Positions 20,156 through 33,619 of a DNA stretch of 64,000 nt are shown in pieces. The notes under the pieces are model-generated. The model did not search any database and had not been told where the DNA came from. It saw only the letters and a program-made list of their open reading frames with translations. Origin of the DNA: an uncultured Cytophagales bacterium (GTDB lineage Bacteria > Bacteroidota > Bacteroidia > Cytophagales > UBA9547); assembly GCA_945957555.1 (NCBI GenBank), contig CAMFLX010000006.1, positions 1 through 64,000 on the forward strand, read 5' to 3'. Every line of letters starts with the position of its first letter. Within the stretch, counting starts at the first letter, position 1. A program made the position numbers and the translations under genes.

Positions 20156-23100
20156 ATGGAAAAGAAATTATACATTGCCTTCATCGGCATAGTTATGTCC
20201 TTATGCGGATATACACAGACAACAGGAATCTTTCCTCATACTCCTAACTACTCAAGAGATCCTGGTTTTACGACAACTGACTACAAGGCATTTATCTATC
20301 GTAGGTATAAAAACAATACCAACTCTAGTTTGCCATTTAGGATCTTGGAGCCGAAAAATTATAATCCGGCAAATGCAACAGTCTATCCTGTGTTCTTTAT
20401 GCTCCATGGTAGGGGTGAGGCTGGTACAGATAACAACTACCAACTTAAATGGGGCGGGAAAATGCACTTGGATGCACGAAACAGGACTACGAATCCGATC
20501 GATGCTTTCGTGGTTTTCCCACAAGAGCCCTATGGGCAATGGACTAATGAGCCTTACTACAATACTACCGTGGGGGGGGGGCAAGTGACTACTCATTTGG
20601 AGATGACTTGGGAGTTGGTCGATTCATTGATCAGAAGATATAAAATTGATAATAACCGAGTTTATATACATGGCTTGTCATCGGGAGGAACTGGTACATG
20701 GGCATCAATATACTGGAAACCCAATCTTTTTGCTGCAGCACAACCGATGTCTGCGCCTGGCGATAGTTCAAGGGCTCGTTATATAGCCAATATTCCAATA
20801 TGGTTGCACCAAGGCGGGGTAGATACTAACCCAATTCCGTTTATATCTCATGTGATGATAGCCGCTTTGAAAAAGGCTGGTGCTATTGATACCTCATTAA
20901 AATACACAGAATATCCTAATGTTGGACACTCTTGTTGGACCTTAGCATATGCGCAACCAGACTTTTTCCCTTTCTTTTTAAGACATTCTAAACGGAAATT
21001 GAGGGTCTTGGGAAACAATCCATTTTGTCCTGGAGAATCTGTAACACTGGGTTTTTCATATAATATGTACCAATATGAGTGGTATAAAGATAATGCTGTA
21101 TTAGCAAGTCAAACGAGTCCAAATTTGACAAGCATTAATCAGGATGGAAACTACTATGTTCGTTTTAAGAGAACGGCAACCTCGGCTTGGGAAAATTCGG
21201 ACACAATACATGTGTATCAAAATTCGGCAGCGCCTAAGCCAGTTATACTTGCTTCTGGGAGTACAATTTTGCCAGCACCTGATGCGAATAAAGTTACGCT
21301 AAAGGGGCCTAAAGGATATGCTTCGTATGAATGGAGTACGGGTGGTACTGCAGATAGCATAGTGATGTCGTCAAATGCTACGGTTACATTACGAATTAGA
21401 GGAAGTGTAGGGTGCTGGAGCTTTCCTTCTGATCCTGTTCTAGTTAGAGTAGGTCCGAATAGTTCAGGTACTCCACAGACTGCCACAAATTTGGTGGCAG
21501 CACCACGTTCGCCATCGTCAATAGGTCTTACATGGACTGATAATGCTACAAATGAATTAGGTTACGAAGTATATAGGTCAGCAACTGCAAGTGGCCCTTA
21601 TAAGTTTTTGAAATCAATAGCTGCGAATACTACACTTTTGGTGGATTCCTTTTTGACAGCCAATACTCGTTATTATTATAAAGTAAGGGTTTATAACGAA
21701 AACGGTGCGAATTTGTCTACCAATTATGCTTTTACAAATACTTATGGTGATCTGGTTGCTCCATCACAGCCCACAGGCTTAAAAATCGAGTCGATGGATG
21801 AGTTTGGCGGACTTACATTGGCATGGAATCCTTCCACGGATAACGTAGCAGTTAAAGAATACCGAATTATGGATAATTCTACAAGGCTTGGGACTGCTAG
21901 CACAAATAAGATTTATCTTCAGCTCAATCGTGGACAATATTTTAGCTTCAAAGTAATTGCGGTCGATTACAGTAATAATCTATCAGTTCCGTCTGATGTA
22001 TTGTTGTTTAAATATGATGGGCAAGGAATTATCGCTAGGGCTTATGAAGACAACTGGAATGCGGTACCTAATTTTACGAAAATCACACCTGTAGCAACTG
22101 GTTTGGTTGCCTTAGTGAAAAATACGGGTAGCAAAAGGTTTCCTAATCTGATCAATAGAACGGCAACAGTAAATGGGGCCATAGTTCAAGATCTTATCAA
22201 TGGGACTACCCAAGATTTAGTTAGGAGTAATTTGACAGAATATTATGCTGTACAATTTAAAGGTTATATCAATTTATATTCTGGTACAACTACTTTTTAT
22301 CTTACTTCAGACGATGGTTCCATGTTGTATATCAATAACCAATTGATCGTTAATAATGACGGTAACCATGGTTCTATTACTAAGTCAGGAACAGTTAGTT
22401 TAAGTGGTTGGTATCCTATTGAGGTTCAGTATTATCAGAAGAGTGGTGGTGCAGGACTGAACTTGCAATGGAAAAATTCTAATACCAATAGCGGAAATAC
22501 TCAAGATGTTCCGGCAGGGCGGTTATCTTATTTTTCTACTGGTATACCTACTGCTGTAAGTCAAGTAACTCCTGATGTCCCTAAAACGCCAGCAAGTATA
22601 TCACTTGAACCGGCAACAGTTGTGAATGCCGCAACAGATAAGATGAGAATAAAAATGACTTGGTCTCATGCCACAGCTGCCAATGTGATTGGCTATGAAA
22701 TAGTGAGGGCAAAAACATCTACAAGTAGCTTAAATAATGCTATTTACTATAAAATAGCAGAAATTCCTTTTGTCGCAAATAACTATGTGTATAGAGATAG
22801 CTTAGATAATTCCACTGCCAATGGATTTTTAGAACCTGGCTATTACTATTGGTATAAGATCAGATCCAAATCTACAAATAACTTTTCCAACTATTTGGAT
22901 ATAGGAAAACAACAGGTGTTGACAACTCCAGCTCCAAACATTACCACTATTAATTTACCGAATACTCCAACAAGTCTTGTGGCAAGTCCTATCTCTAATA
23001 GCGTAGTGGGTTTGACTTGGAATTCGAATGGAAGTGCTAATATTTCGGGCGTTAATATTTATAGATGTAGTTCTGTTTCTGGGACTTTTATACTTGTTGG

Positions 23101-26100
23101 TAAGGCTAAAAGGAATGCGACGACCTTTAATGACAGTACTTGTTTGGCTAAAACTACATATTATTATAAAGTACAGGCATTCAATGCAAGAGGAATTTCT
23201 GCATTAAGTTCAGTGGCTAGTACTACTACATTGAACATTCCGAATACTCCAACAAACTTATTGGCTACGGCTCTAGGTCCTAATCATATAGCTTTGTCTT
23301 GGTCTGTGACTGACGATGTCTCTCTTGGTTTTAAAATATATAGGTCATTGTCATCCAATGGTACTTATACTATGATAGATTCAATAGCAAATCCACTTTT
23401 GTTGTCGTACCAAGATCAGTCATTAACCGCCAATACATCATACTTTTATAAAATAAAAGCATATAACAAGAATGATAATGGTACTCAAAACGAATCACCG
23501 TTTTCCCCAGTAGCATCTGCGACAACCATGAAATCTCTTGATGTAGATACGACGGGATGGCATTTACCTATTGTAGCGGGCTCTTTTAGTTCTACATTCT
23601 CTAATAAGAAATCCAATGGTACGAACAAATTACAGTTAGCTTCAGCACTTGAAAATAAGTCAGACTTTTTGAAGATGATTCATATTGATAGTACTATAGG
23701 AAACAAAGCGTCATTTCAGTTCAGATTGCCAACAGTGAGTAATTTCCCTAATGGTGCCATGTTGATTTATAATGTTGGGTATAGCAAATCTGCAACTCAA
23801 TTCTTAGGAGGAGGGAATACCATAACTATAAATGATAGTACCACAATTGTAGATGGAAGTGACTTACTACAAAATTTAATCGTTAGGGTTTATGTTTCTG
23901 GTACGAGTGATTTTGCATCAAAAGATAGTATTCCTTTCGATATGGTTTGGAAATCACCAAGAAACTACGATTTGCAAAAAGTTACATTACCTACTTCGTT
24001 TGTAAATCAGAGTGGAGGTACTGTTAGTTTAGATAATAAATTTATTAGGTTGGAGTTTTTTGTCAAAGCCAATACCAATCCAACTGTAACAAATCAGTCA
24101 ATATGGGTTTCTGAAATTGGTTTATATAAGTTTTTGCCAAGTGGTAAGAGACATAATTATGTACTGTTATTGGGAGCTTCTTTTGAGGAACAGATACCAG
24201 GCATGGGACTTACCATGTTTAGAAAGAAGATAGCAAGCTATCCAGATCTGAAAGACAAAGGAAAGGATTTGGTGATCTTTAACTTGGCCGTGAGTGGTTC
24301 GGCTACTGCAAACTTGCAAGATAGCTTGGAGTCATATTTGAGCAGGCATCCAAATGCGAGTTATGTGTTTGTGCATCAGGGAGGTAATAATATCAATAAC
24401 GGGTTCAATAATATGAGGCCACTTACCTTCAGTCGCTTATCTTCAGCAAATTGTTTGAACTTGGTTGATGATTTCAAATACTTTATCAATACTATATATG
24501 CTAAAGGCAAAGTTCCTTTTATTTCAAGATTACACTTTAGGGATTACAAAGATGCTACCTGCTTGAGTAATGGTATTGCCGATAACTCCCCTTCAGTAAA
24601 AGGGGGCTTATATCAAGAAAACAGCTCTTTGCCTGTTAATCTTCTTATAGATAGCTTGACGAAGTTATACATGCCATACATGTATTCTGATGTGGAGAAA
24701 AGGAATTTGATGAATTATTATCCTGTGACACTCAATGAGCAAAAAATCTTAGGAGGTGATGGTATTCACCCGCAAGCAACGCATAGAGATACACTGTGTA
24801 GATACTGGATTGATTATGGGATTAGATATCTCTATACAGGTGCTTTTGCCACACCTTTGGTATATTCACCTGGCAATTCTCCAGGTGTGAATACAGGTCA
24901 GATTGGATGTAACCCTAACAAATACACGCCACAAAATAAGCCCAATTTGTTAACTCTCGCGGCTAATGCTGTTCTTTTGGCCAAAGAATCAAAATCGGGT
25001 ACAGATATTTGGAATGCTAGAATTTTGGTCGAGCAAATTGGTGATAAGACGATTAGGGTACCGTATGTGAATGCATTGGATTCTTTGAGGGATTTCAGAA
25101 GTCCATCTAATCCTGTGGACTTAGCAGGTAGTGCGATCGACAATACAAAAATACAATTGGACTGGTTGGATTTGAACAGTATAGAGTCTGCTTTTGAAGT
25201 GTATCGATCAGCAAATGCTGGTGCGTTTGCATTGATCAAAACATTGCCAGCTAATTCCATAACATACTTAGATTCTAATTTGGATGCTACCAATGAATAT
25301 ACATATTATGTGAAGGCTTTAAATGGCACATTTAGGTCGGGTCGCTCTAATTTAGTAAAAGTAAGACCATCTGTTACATTTTACTTGAAAGCATCTGGTG
25401 ATGTGGCCAGTTTGACATCATGGGGAAGAGGGTATGATGGATCAGGAGTGAATCCAACAAACTTTGCGGGTTCTGGACAAACCTTTGTGGTTACAAATAG
25501 AAGTGGCCTTGTCACTCTGAATAGTAATTTATCAATGAATGGATCCTATTCTAAACTTATATTGCCAGAGGGACAGTCATTTAAAATCAATACAGGGGTT
25601 AATTTTCAGGGTCAGTTAGAGGTGAATAATAATTCTAAGTTGTATCTTTCGGGGTCTAATTTACCTACCATTTCTAAAGTTGATAGCGGTTCTACAGTAG
25701 TTTTAGGTAATAATTTCACATTACCCAATTCCCTGCGTTGGGGGAATATAGAAGTTCAAAATGCTACGATTACCTTGAATACAGACACAACTAAAATCTT
25801 AGGGAGCTTAAAGTTTAATGCTGGTAGTGGGATCTCAGGAAGTAATTCGATGATTTCCTTGAAAGGGAACTTAGAGACTGTGGATACGCTGTTCACGCTG
25901 ACCGGTACTGGTTTGGTCTTGAAGGGAGATAATCAGACCATAGATGTGAAAAGTGGTACATTGCCTTTAAAATCATTTAGATTGGTGGCTGGCTCTACAG
26001 CTTCTATCCTTAATTCCTCTAAGATCAAGATCACAGGAGCGAGTGCCTCAGATAAATTTGTTCTAGAAAATAATGCTTCATTGCACCTTGGTTCTGGTCA

Positions 26101-27820
26101 AATTATTCTGGAGGGTAACATTGCATTTAACCCAGGTAATGAAACGGGGTATCTAGAAACTAATGGTGGTTCTGTTAAAATAAGCTCAACTTCTTCAAGT
26201 ACTTCATATTTAAGATTGTCTACGGCATTTGCACAGAACTATTTGGAGAATTTGAGTCTTAATAATACTTCGACATCAACAAAATTAGAATTGTCGAGCC
26301 CTGTATACATTAAGAATACCTTAGATTTAAAATCAGGAACTTTTAAAACGAACAATAATCTCGTGCTCTTGACTGATTTTGAAAATTCTTCAAGGATATT
26401 GAAAATGACTTCAAGTGTTGTTTTTCAAGACTCGATTACCTACATGAATTTTGTAGGTCCGTTTAAAAAACAAGGTTCTTATAATATAGCCACACCAATT
26501 AAAAATCGTCAGATGAAAGAATGGAAAAATTCATTCTTTATAAAGACTGGTACAGTTGGTACTACTCCTGTTTCTTATTTGAGAACTTATAATGAAGTTA
26601 CCAATCTTTGGGAGAGCATAATAGATAGTAATGTCACATTAACTCCTGGTAAAGGCTTTAATCTTTATATTCCACAAAGTACATTTAATATTGATGCGGT
26701 GTATAGTGGAGTGTCATATTCAAATTATGGATATCCTGTGATTGGTAATGGCACTGGTAATAATGCAGGTGATTTTCAAATTCCAATTACTAGAACTTCA
26801 GCAACCAATGGTTGGAATCTAGTAGCAAATCCATATCCTTGTGAATTGGATTGGGAAAATACCACAGGCTGGGATAAGTCAGGTATATCTAATATTCTGT
26901 ACTTCTGGGACGGTGCTACAAGTAAGTATCTTTCTTACGATGGAAACACACATACCTCTTTAAATGGAGCAACGTCTAAAATCCCTTCAGGACAAGGATT
27001 CTTTGTAAGGAAGACATCTGTTGGCTCGGGTATTTTAAAGGTCAATGAAAATGCTAAAGTTGGAGCGAAGCCCGATTATAAGTTCTATAGAACGGCTCAA
27101 GAAGAGGACTTGTTCAAACTGTTCATTACCTTGACTGATGGGAAAAGTGCTGGGGACCAAACAGCTTTGGTTTTTGGTACCGACTTCTCTGAGGAATATG
27201 ATGAAATGGATCAAAGTAAATTGTCAGGCCAGGCTATAAATATATATAGTTTGCTAGAAGGTAATAATTTGGTCCTCCAGTGCTTACCTAAAGGCTATGC
27301 AGAGGTCATTCCTTTGGGAATAGCTGCACCGAAAGGTTCTTATATATTGAACTTTACAGACCAACAATTATTGGAGCACTTAGGTAGTCTTTACTTGTAT
27401 GACAAGTATACTAATAAGTCTGTGGATTTGATTTCAGATCCGACTTATTCATTTGCTATTACTGCTGATGCTGCTTCTACAGGAAATGATAGATTTGTCT
27501 TGAATTACACCTTTAAAGAATCTGTAGTAACAGGAATTCATGATCATCAAAGCGAAAGTAATTCTGTAGAGGTATATCCGAACCCATTCTCACACCACTT
27601 AATGTTGAAAATTAAATCTCAAGAATCGACTCTTGCGCATATTCACGTGACCAATGTGTCAGGAATTCAGATTTACAGTAAGGAGCAAGAGTTGAGTGCT
27701 GGGGATAATTATATTGATGCATCCAAGCTGATTAATTTTGAGTTTTACGGAAAAGGTGTGTATATTTTGAAGGTGATTACAGATTCACAGACTGTTTCAT
27801 CTAAATTAATTTATAAATAA
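20156..27820 (+). CDS. Giant multidomain T9SS-secreted protein with feruloyl-esterase-like and SGNH hydrolase domains
   Basis: A 2554-residue surface or secreted protein. Order: signal peptide (1-21); alpha/beta-hydrolase of the feruloyl/acetyl esterase type (about 40-285) with FMLHGRGEAG, nucleophile S175 in HGLSSGG, D223 and H258 in NVGHS; two Ig-like segments (about 290-435); two fibronectin III domains (about 439-618); PA14 domain (about 690-790, FYLTSDDGSMLYINNQ); three more Fn3 domains (about 809-1125); a beta-sandwich; an SGNH hydrolase (about 1332-1565: S1342 in LGASF, NLAVSGSA, HQGGNNIN, D1535 and H1538 in GDGIHP); another Fn3 (about 1645-1740); a repetitive beta-rich region (about 1741-2096); a beta-sandwich; type A T9SS sorting domain (VEVYPNPF from about 2471). 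Likely deacylates plant or other polysaccharides at the cell surface. A G10 tract at 20572-20581 lies within the esterase coding region. Confidence 0.88.
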   Translation: MEKKLYIAFIGIVMSLCGYTQTTGIFPHTPNYSRDPGFTTTDYKAFIYRRYKNNTNSSLPFRILEPKNYNPANATVYPVFFMLHGRGEAGTDNNYQLKWGGKMHLDARNRTTNPIDAFVVFPQEPYGQWTNEPYYNTTVGGGQVTTHLEMTWELVDSLIRRYKIDNNRVYIHGLSSGGTGTWASIYWKPNLFAAAQPMSAPGDSSRARYIANIPIWLHQGGVDTNPIPFISHVMIAALKKAGAIDTSLKYTEYPNVGHSCWTLAYAQPDFFPFFLRHSKRKLRVLGNNPFCPGESVTLGFSYNMYQYEWYKDNAVLASQTSPNLTSINQDGNYYVRFKRTATSAWENSDTIHVYQNSAAPKPVILASGSTILPAPDANKVTLKGPKGYASYEWSTGGTADSIVMSSNATVTLRIRGSVGCWSFPSDPVLVRVGPNSSGTPQTATNLVAAPRSPSSIGLTWTDNATNELGYEVYRSATASGPYKFLKSIAANTTLLVDSFLTANTRYYYKVRVYNENGANLSTNYAFTNTYGDLVAPSQPTGLKIESMDEFGGLTLAWNPSTDNVAVKEYRIMDNSTRLGTASTNKIYLQLNRGQYFSFKVIAVDYSNNLSVPSDVLLFKYDGQGIIARAYEDNWNAVPNFTKITPVATGLVALVKNTGSKRFPNLINRTATVNGAIVQDLINGTTQDLVRSNLTEYYAVQFKGYINLYSGTTTFYLTSDDGSMLYINNQLIVNNDGNHGSITKSGTVSLSGWYPIEVQYYQKSGGAGLNLQWKNSNTNSGNTQDVPAGRLSYFSTGIPTAVSQVTPDVPKTPASISLEPATVVNAATDKMRIKMTWSHATAANVIGYEIVRAKTSTSSLNNAIYYKIAEIPFVANNYVYRDSLDNSTANGFLEPGYYYWYKIRSKSTNNFSNYLDIGKQQVLTTPAPNITTINLPNTPTSLVASPISNSVVGLTWNSNGSANISGVNIYRCSSVSGTFILVGKAKRNATTFNDSTCLAKTTYYYKVQAFNARGISALSSVASTTTLNIPNTPTNLLATALGPNHIALSWSVTDDVSLGFKIYRSLSSNGTYTMIDSIANPLLLSYQDQSLTANTSYFYKIKAYNKNDNGTQNESPFSPVASATTMKSLDVDTTGWHLPIVAGSFSSTFSNKKSNGTNKLQLASALENKSDFLKMIHIDSTIGNKASFQFRLPTVSNFPNGAMLIYNVGYSKSATQFLGGGNTITINDSTTIVDGSDLLQNLIVRVYVSGTSDFASKDSIPFDMVWKSPRNYDLQKVTLPTSFVNQSGGTVSLDNKFIRLEFFVKANTNPTVTNQSIWVSEIGLYKFLPSGKRHNYVLLLGASFEEQIPGMGLTMFRKKIASYPDLKDKGKDLVIFNLAVSGSATANLQDSLESYLSRHPNASYVFVHQGGNNINNGFNNMRPLTFSRLSSANCLNLVDDFKYFINTIYAKGKVPFISRLHFRDYKDATCLSNGIADNSPSVKGGLYQENSSLPVNLLIDSLTKLYMPYMYSDVEKRNLMNYYPVTLNEQKILGGDGIHPQATHRDTLCRYWIDYGIRYLYTGAFATPLVYSPGNSPGVNTGQIGCNPNKYTPQNKPNLLTLAANAVLLAKESKSGTDIWNARILVEQIGDKTIRVPYVNALDSLRDFRSPSNPVDLAGSAIDNTKIQLDWLDLNSIESAFEVYRSANAGAFALIKTLPANSITYLDSNLDATNEYTYYVKALNGTFRSGRSNLVKVRPSVTFYLKASGDVASLTSWGRGYDGSGVNPTNFAGSGQTFVVTNRSGLVTLNSNLSMNGSYSKLILPEGQSFKINTGVNFQGQLEVNNNSKLYLSGSNLPTISKVDSGSTVVLGNNFTLPNSLRWGNIEVQNATITLNTDTTKILGSLKFNAGSGISGSNSMISLKGNLETVDTLFTLTGTGLVLKGDNQTIDVKSGTLPLKSFRLVAGSTASILNSSKIKITGASASDKFVLENNASLHLGSGQIILEGNIAFNPGNETGYLETNGGSVKISSTSSSTSYLRLSTAFAQNYLENLSLNNTSTSTKLELSSPVYIKNTLDLKSGTFKTNNNLVLLTDFENSSRILKMTSSVVFQDSITYMNFVGPFKKQGSYNIATPIKNRQMKEWKNSFFIKTGTVGTTPVSYLRTYNEVTNLWESIIDSNVTLTPGKGFNLYIPQSTFNIDAVYSGVSYSNYGYPVIGNGTGNNAGDFQIPITRTSATNGWNLVANPYPCELDWENTTGWDKSGISNILYFWDGATSKYLSYDGNTHTSLNGATSKIPSGQGFFVRKTSVGSGILKVNENAKVGAKPDYKFYRTAQEEDLFKLFITLTDGKSAGDQTALVFGTDFSEEYDEMDQSKLSGQAINIYSLLEGNNLVLQCLPKGYAEVIPLGIAAPKGSYILNFTDQQLLEHLGSLYLYDKYTNKSVDLISDPTYSFAITADAASTGNDRFVLNYTFKESVVTGIHDHQSESNSVEVYPNPFSHHLMLKIKSQESTLAHIHVTNVSGIQIYSKEQELSAGDNYIDASKLINFEFYGKGVYILKVITDSQTVSSKLIYK
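20572..20581 (+). repeat. G10 homopolymer tract inside coding sequence
   Basis: Ten consecutive G residues at codons 139-142 of the giant protein gene (residues VGGG). The tract is in frame as given. Such runs can slip during replication and switch a gene off; they are also a common site of sequencing error. Confidence 0.95.
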
Positions 27821-31512: not shown

Positions 31513-33393
31513 ATGCTCATCGTAGTAATGGGAGTGAGCGGCAGTGGGAAGACTTCCGTAGGGCAGCTTTTGGCCGAAGAACTTAATCTTCCGTTTTTTG
31601 ATGCGGATGATTTTCATCCAGCAAGCAATAGAGAAAAGATGGCAAAGGGTATTCCCTTAAATGATGAAGACCGTTGGCCCTGGTTACAGATCCTTGCTGA
31701 TTTGTTGCTTGTTCAAGAGAAGGGAAAGGGGGCTGTGTTGGCTTGTTCGGCACTTAAGGAAAGCTATAGGTCGTTCATGGGGCAATCTGTTCTATCTTCC
31801 ATCAATTGGGTTTTACTTGAAGGTTCCAAAGACTTGATCATGCAACGTATGCAGGAACGTACGGGACATTTTATGCCTCCAAGTTTGCTAGATTCCCAGT
31901 TTCAAACCTTGGAGCGACCCGATTACGCGTTTCATATATCCATAGAAAAATCATTAAAGAAAATCGTTGAAGAAATTATCATACAGATGAACGCTACTAT
32001 ACAAAATTCAATTGGACTCATTGGCCTAGGTGTAATGGGGGGTAATCTTGCACTTAACTTCAGAGATAAAGGGGTAAAGATTGCTGTATACAATCGCCAA
32101 ACACCCACGGAAGTAGATGTGGCGAAGAAGTTTGAGGCAAAACACCAAGTAGCAGGCTTTGATGATCTTCCTGCTTTTGTAGCCTCATTAGCATCACCCC
32201 GCAAGATTTTGCTCATGGTGAATGCTGGCAAACCAGTAGATGATGTGCTGAGTCACTTGCTTCCTTTGTTGCAAAGGGGGGATGTGATTATGGACGGAGG
32301 TAATTCTTATTATAACGATACGACAGAAAGAAGCAAGGCTCTGGAAGCACAAGGTATTCTGTACTTAGGCGTAGGGGTTTCTGGAGGGGAGGAAGGTGCG
32401 CGCAAGGGGCCTGCCATAATGCCAGGGGGCAGCAAAGATGCCTATGCGCTCATGGCGCCCTTTTTTGATCTCGTGGCCGCTAAAGACAGCAACAATAAAC
32501 CTTGTAGCGCATACATTGGGCCAGACGGTGCTGGGCACTTTGTGAAGATGGTACATAACGGTATAGAATATGCGGAAATGCAGATCTTGGCGGAGACTTA
32601 TGCAGTAATGAGAAACCTTATGGATTTGGCTCCGCAGAAGATTGCTGAAATCTTGGATCAATGGAAGCATGAAGGAGAGGGCAGTTTTCTTTTGGAGATC
32701 ACACGAGACATCATGCTTAAGAAAGAAGGCGAGGATTTACTCTTAGATAAAATAGTAGATGCTGCGGAGCAGAAGGGGACGGGAAGTTGGACCATAAAGG
32801 CTTCATTGGAGTTGGGGATTCCCATAAATACCATTGCTGATGCGGTAACTGCAAGGGTGCTGTCTTCTATGAAGCCTTATAGAGTAAAAGCGAATGCTCA
32901 ATACGCTTCTGTTTTGAATAAAGAAAAGAAACATGAAATCACTACGGCGACTTTGAAGTCTGCCTTTAAAGCAGCTCGATTGATCAACCATATTACTGGA
33001 TTTGAAATGATCAAATATGCCTCTGATGAATTTAATTGGGGGCTAAATCTAGGTGATATCGCAAGAGTATGGACCAACGGCTGTATCATTAGATCTGTGT
33101 TGATGGAACAATTGTCCACACTTTTGACAACAGAATCGCAATTGCTATTGGCGCCTCAAGTAGTTAAAGAACTGACGGAAACACAAGCGTCTTTGGCAAT
33201 GGTAGCCGCTCAGAGCTTGCAAAATGGTTTAGCCGTGCCTGTATATACTTCAGCTTTGAATTATTTCCTCAGTTGTATTACGGCCAATAGTGCTGCCAAC
33301 CTGATCCAAGCACAAAGGGATTACTTTGGCGCACATAGGTACAAACGTGTCGATCAAGACCAGAATTTGTATTTCCACACGCAGTGGGTTTGA
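31513..33393 (+). CDS. Bifunctional gluconokinase / 6-phosphogluconate dehydrogenase (GntK-Gnd fusion)
   Basis: A 626-residue cytosolic fusion. Residues 1-155 are a full-length GntK-type gluconokinase: P-loop GVSGSGKTS, DADDFHPASNREKM, GIPLNDEDRWPWL, CSALKESYR. Residues 159-626 are a full-length 6-phosphogluconate dehydrogenase: Rossmann motif GLIGLGVMGGNLALN, MVNAGKPVD, IMDGGNSYYNDT, GVGVSGGEEGARKGP, catalytic K and E regions GHFVKMVHNGIEYAEMQ, and the C-terminal AQRDYFGAHRYKR. The two reactions are consecutive: gluconate to 6-phosphogluconate, then to ribulose 5-phosphate with NADPH or NADH. The frame is continuous with no stop between domains. The dehydrogenase half has its own ATG at 31987, so separate translation of the second half is possible. 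No signal peptide. Confidence 0.94.
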   Translation: MLIVVMGVSGSGKTSVGQLLAEELNLPFFDADDFHPASNREKMAKGIPLNDEDRWPWLQILADLLLVQEKGKGAVLACSALKESYRSFMGQSVLSSINWVLLEGSKDLIMQRMQERTGHFMPPSLLDSQFQTLERPDYAFHISIEKSLKKIVEEIIIQMNATIQNSIGLIGLGVMGGNLALNFRDKGVKIAVYNRQTPTEVDVAKKFEAKHQVAGFDDLPAFVASLASPRKILLMVNAGKPVDDVLSHLLPLLQRGDVIMDGGNSYYNDTTERSKALEAQGILYLGVGVSGGEEGARKGPAIMPGGSKDAYALMAPFFDLVAAKDSNNKPCSAYIGPDGAGHFVKMVHNGIEYAEMQILAETYAVMRNLMDLAPQKIAEILDQWKHEGEGSFLLEITRDIMLKKEGEDLLLDKIVDAAEQKGTGSWTIKASLELGIPINTIADAVTARVLSSMKPYRVKANAQYASVLNKEKKHEITTATLKSAFKAARLINHITGFEMIKYASDEFNWGLNLGDIARVWTNGCIIRSVLMEQLSTLLTTESQLLLAPQVVKELTETQASLAMVAAQSLQNGLAVPVYTSALNYFLSCITANSAANLIQAQRDYFGAHRYKRVDQDQNLYFHTQWV

Positions 33394-33619
33394 GTGGTTT
33401 AAAGTGATGGTTTAGCGCCCCATAAGGGAAGTCCCAAAAGCTCAGCAGCTTTTACCCAAAAGGTACTGAGCTTTTCCTCAAAAGATGCGGAGCTTTTCAC
33501 CGAAAGCTGCTGAGCTTTTTTGAGGAAGCTGCTGAGCTTTTTCTGATTCAGATATGGATAATTATTAAGGTGCAGGAAATCTGCTGATTGTGAGATATTG
33601 TTTGTGTTTTGTTCTACTA
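33394..33619. other. Intergenic region with repeat array
   Basis: Between the convergent GntK-Gnd and DUF4846 genes. It is mostly occupied by the 22-bp repeat array listed separately; the flanks show nothing else. Confidence 0.6.
33436..33545. repeat. Five tandem 22-bp hairpin repeats
   Basis: Five consecutive 22-base units (33436, 33458, 33480, 33502 and 33524). The core AAAGCTGCTGAGCTTT is self-complementary at its ends (AAAGCT/AGCTTT) with a 4-base loop. The first unit carries the core in inverted orientation (GCTCAGCAGC) and units 2-3 have substitutions in the core but keep AAAAG...CTTTT. Possible terminator or REP-like array between convergent genes. Confidence 0.85.

Follow-up and report, generated by a model that had tools for sequence, protein, structure and literature searches.

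The window, a stretch of 64,000 nucleotides from an uncultured Cytophagales bacterium, carries a single gene whose product joins a gluconokinase (GntK) to a 6-phosphogluconate dehydrogenase (Gnd). The frame runs from an ATG at 31513 to a TGA stop at 33391–33393 and encodes 626 amino acids with no internal stops, which confirms the exact coordinates of the uninterrupted 626-codon frame (31513–33393) described in an earlier note on this DNA. That note also held that a complete GntK is followed by a complete Gnd, and NCBIfam profiles bear this out. Against the gluconokinase model TIGR01313 (curated cut-off 113.75 bits) the first half scores 164 bits, with residues 3–157 covering positions 1–160 of 164, and against TIGR00873 (gnd, curated cut-off 426.7 bits) the second half scores 548 bits, with residues 167–626 covering positions 2–466 of 467. 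TIGR00873 is the NADP equivalog and the Gnd half falls below the cut-off of the NAD-type TIGR00872, so that a preference for NADP is predicted from the profiles. Pfam divides the protein into SKI (10–118), NAD_binding_2 (166–324) and 6PGD (341–625), and none of the NCBIfam models matching it spans GntK and Gnd together. Solved gluconokinases (3t61, 4eun and 1knq) align with the first half, and many solved 6-phosphogluconate dehydrogenases (2zyg, 2w90 and others) align with the second, from residue 164 or 165 to 626.

Table 1. Features of the gntK-gnd fusion gene, in window coordinates.
Feature	Position	Strand	Basis or remark
gntK-gnd fusion gene, 626 codons and stop	31513..33393	+	open frame; full-length fused homologues
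Gluconokinase half (GntK/IdnK-type), residues 3–157	31519..31983	+	TIGR01313; solved gluconokinases aligned
P-loop GVSGSGKT of the GntK half, residues 7–14	31531..31554	+	K13 kept in 47/47 fused proteins
In-frame ATG (Met159) at the joint	31987..31989	+	matches start codon of relatives' separate gnd; possible internal start
NADP-type 6-phosphogluconate dehydrogenase half, residues 165–626	32005..33390	+	TIGR00873; PDB relatives

The neighbours of the fusion gene (a glycosyltransferase, an unassigned 732-residue protein and a DUF4846 protein) offer no explanation of it. Just 3′ of the gene, at 33430–33545, lie repeated short motifs like AGCTGCTGAGCTTTTT together with their reverse complements, possibly a terminator or a small repeat element. 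Elsewhere in the window, 20156–27820 encodes a 2554-residue protein with fn3 and PA14 domains, a Por secretion-system tail and weak esterase matches at its start; it is probably a large type IX-secreted protein.

Both halves retain the residues expected of working enzymes. The motifs quoted in the earlier note, among them the P-loop and DADDFHP, were found in the sequence, and alignment with 3t61 and 1knq gives the GntK set as GVSGSGKT, DADDFHP, CSALK, YR, RTGHFMP and SQ. The Gnd half has N264, S290, K345, H348, N349, E352, Y353, K421, R448, R602 and H608, positions that correspond to substrate-binding or catalytic residues of the sheep enzyme. Across 47 aligned fused proteins, namely that of the window and 46 others, all eleven Gnd positions are invariant, as are G7, G12, K13, H35, Y85, R86, R116 and Q129 of GntK; most of the GntK motif residues are conserved across the set. 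A reading in which one half is catalytically dead and kept as a structural or regulatory domain could draw on the greater variability of the GntK halves, which have longer branches in the tree than the Gnd halves. However, the alignment revealed no loss among the residues checked in either half of the window protein, and the Gnd residues and K13, H35, R86, R116 and Q129 of GntK are kept in 47/47 proteins. We therefore reject the dead-half reading as highly improbable. The conserved residues support two complete, apparently active enzymes for successive steps in one polypeptide.

The same domain order recurs well beyond this genome. Within a sample of 391 genomes of its order, full-length fused matches occur in 37, the window's included, and the other 36 are 46–54% identical to it. 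In a phylum-wide sample of 396 there are ten such genomes, six of them outside the order. Named carriers include an uncultured Dokdonia sp., other Flavobacteriales, a Chitinophagales metagenome-assembled genome (MAG) and, more distantly, an Actinomycetaceae MAG. The remark that separate genes are the norm for GntK and Gnd is correct in general, yet within this group of Bacteroidota their fusion is no rarity. Recurrence also bears on the possibility that the joined frame is an artefact of misassembly or of a frameshift error. Relatives in the same family do have separate, overlapping genes that are one indel away from fusing. Against this, the same kind of joint is seen at 46 other fused loci in different genomes, some of them single-contig (for example G293 and G364), and because of these loci we reject an artefact as very unlikely indeed. 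The titles and abstracts searched, which represent part of the literature, did not describe a GntK-Gnd fusion, its recurrence or its link to the absence of zwf and pgl.

In many relatives gntK and gnd are neighbouring genes in different frames, and their ends often overlap: the overlap is ATGA in four genomes (G191, G106, G153 and G142) and longer in two of the window's own family (G001 and G006). Of the rows in the Gnd tree, 62 from Bacteroidota, of which 46 are fused and 16 adjacent, cluster together with support of 100, and within this cluster the nearest companions of the window are G001 and G006 (support 99). The fused and adjacent states are interleaved, so that the change from one to the other occurred several times. 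The idea that all fusions share one origin was rejected when the 46 fused rows were constrained together (p-AU 1.8e-102, Gnd tree), a result that does not distinguish repeated fusion from fission. The GntK tree is weaker and does not place the window beside G001 and G006, yet many of the small groups reappear in it, so that the two halves seem largely to travel together. From these sequence comparisons, we suggest that overlapping gntK-gnd pairs are either the source of the fusion or its alternate form, the tree allowing either direction. The ancestral or alternate state would be a translationally coupled gntK-gnd pair with overlapping ends, and an indel at the joint would switch between states. 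We also observed gntK and gnd matches adjoining as two pieces on plasmids of Rhodococcus opacus (CP003955.1 and NZ_CP080955.1) and of Vibrio (NZ_CP045339.1 and others).

An AlphaFold model of the single chain (mean pLDDT 84.9, pTM 0.70, from a 24-row alignment) predicts that the last GntK helix (148–163) leads straight into the first Rossmann strand of Gnd (166–170) with no flexible linker. Nearly all Bacteroidota homologues have an equally short joint, and the Actinomycetaceae fusion (L062) has a long one. At the joint of the window's gene lies the ATG at 31987, which sits where the separate gnd genes of relatives begin (as at the G006 and G191 junctions), raising the possibility that a separate Gnd is also, or even mainly, made from Met159 as a retained ancestral gnd start, in which case the fusion would matter little. 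A Gnd beginning at Met159 would be complete, and a nearby ATG is retained in 35/47 fused homologues. The remaining evidence points the other way: the predicted structure has one continuous helix across the joint, the joint zone has no ATG in 12/47 homologues, and in 3/47 it has no ATG, GTG or TTG at all, so that in those the fused product alone suffices. Our view is that a separate Gnd may be made in the window's organism but is not characteristic of fused homologues as a whole, and we regard its synthesis as an unlikely account of the gene.

What the fusion is for is suggested by what the genome lacks. The window's genome is 98.6% complete and a draft of 413 contigs, and the absence of zwf from it is thus not absolute. 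It has no match to PF00479 (glucose-6-phosphate dehydrogenase, G6PDH; zwf) and no 6-phosphogluconolactonase (pgl) above cut-off; the best TIGR01198 match, in a 655-codon frame, reaches 75 bits against a cut-off of 124 and is probably a NagB-like paralogue. Apart from the fusion gene, no Gnd or GntK match was found in this genome. In the order sample, 11/37 fused and 0/7 adjacent genomes have zwf, as do 102/103 of the listed genomes with stand-alone Gnd; put otherwise, it is missing from 33/44 fused-or-adjacent genomes against 1/103 with stand-alone Gnd. Fisher's test gives p of about 3e-22 with genomes treated as unrelated and with a stand-alone set that consists of the listed, best-scoring matches. 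It is important to note that related genomes share ancestry, and the association is not built of independent events. All five fused genomes checked outside the order are without zwf, and in a set of 48 genomes every above-cut-off pgl falls in a genome with zwf.

The exceptions are concentrated, with nine of the 11 zwf-bearing fused genomes belonging to one genus (g38) and carrying a divergent, lower-scoring zwf of ∼162–166 bits; other members of this genus have stand-alone Gnd and ordinary zwf. Possibly, the divergent zwf is a later gain. Its frames, of ∼463–504 residues, occur in G043, G095, G155, G292, G295, G313, G325, G328 and G378, and in the two of these genomes that were tested (G043 and G378) a pgl match lies near it. 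In other genera of the window's family, three genomes (G003, G004 and G007) are without zwf and have no full-length Gnd match, G004 having only a shorter Gnd-like match. Use of 6-phosphogluconate by the Entner-Doudoroff route was rejected, since Edd has no match above cut-off in the window's genome or in any of the 48. In the window's genome the Eda homologue (KDPG aldolase-like; C137, L180) forms a row with genes for a KDG kinase-like protein and an MFS transporter, and these genes are probably for uronate catabolism.

In 12 fused loci and about 15 adjacent ones the GntP permease directly adjoins the pair, as it also does in the Actinomycetaceae case; where coordinates are known, the gaps are roughly 10–65 bases. 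The window's genome has GntP too, away from the fusion gene (C240). Gluconolactonase-like and GSDH families are also found there; they are too broad to prove a source of gluconate.

Our reading, to which we give a probability of roughly 0.8, is that the gene encodes one bifunctional enzyme that arose from, or alternates with, a coupled gntK-gnd pair and provides a gluconate-fed entry to the pentose phosphates without G6PDH. The N-terminal half would convert gluconate and ATP to 6-phosphogluconate, and the C-terminal half would convert this to ribulose 5-phosphate (Ru5P), CO2 and NADPH. Because G6PDH, 6-phosphogluconolactonase and Edd have no above-cut-off match, the fusion enzyme appears to be both sole producer and sole user of 6-phosphogluconate in this genome, which points to a 'gluconate shunt' without G6PDH. 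Gluconate may come from uptake by GntP or from sugar oxidation. The gene is thus best read as a self-contained module from gluconate to Ru5P and NADPH that would bypass G6PDH.

The earlier note had instead proposed a channelled enzyme. Its picture of two complete enzymes for successive steps in one chain agrees with our alignments, but it missed the recurrence, the relation to gene pairs and the loss of zwf and pgl. True channelling, in which 6-phosphogluconate would be handed from one active site to the other, is suggested by the succession of the reactions, the short and, in the model, rigid joint, and the repeated occurrence of fusion. However, overlapping separate genes serve equally in sister genera, from which it follows that channelling is not essential, and either stoichiometry or coupling by itself may suffice to maintain the fusion. 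We therefore hold channelling to be doubtful, and the loss of zwf and pgl is a better explanation of the fusion's role.

Several elements of this proposal have precedents. In Bacillus subtilis the gntRKPZ operon keeps gluconate permease, gluconate kinase and 6-phosphogluconate dehydrogenase together, and GntP adjoins Gnd in most of the Bacillus-type loci in our set (between L071 and L127). In B. subtilis, however, each enzyme is a protein of its own and the kinase belongs to the FGGY family, whereas here a P-loop GntK is fused in frame to Gnd in cells mostly without zwf. Each half matches E. coli-type GntK (1knq) or Gnd (2zyg/3fwn) over nearly its full length, but those are two polypeptides. 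Successive oxidative pentose-phosphate enzymes are also fused in the G6PDH-6PGL proteins of Plasmodium and chordates, for which independent fusions have been reported (PMC3148214, PMC6346587); those join the upstream pair that is missing from the window's genome, rather than gluconokinase and 6-phosphogluconate dehydrogenase. In the gluconate shunt of methanotrophs, GDH and GntK take free glucose through gluconate to 6-phosphogluconate (PMC8062543). There, as here, 6-phosphogluconate is reached through gluconate and GntK, but the enzymes are separate (the word 'fused' is absent from the main text) and the authors discuss G6PDH in the same methanotrophs too. Both reactions, the idea of a gluconate operon and the gluconate shunt itself (PMC8062543) were thus already known.

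On balance, we favour the wider view that much of Bacteroidota has rebuilt its oxidative pentose phosphate pathway to begin with gluconate rather than glucose 6-phosphate, with Zwf and Pgl lost and a repeatedly fused GntK-Gnd, often beside GntP, as the sole entry. This would explain how Bacteroidota without zwf could still use 6-phosphogluconate dehydrogenase and obtain NADPH and pentose phosphates from sugar. For these organisms, a metabolic model would be in error if it took gnd by itself as evidence of a complete oxidative pentose phosphate pathway. Furthermore, the overlapping genes and in-frame fusions would form a natural series for studying the origin of a bifunctional enzyme.
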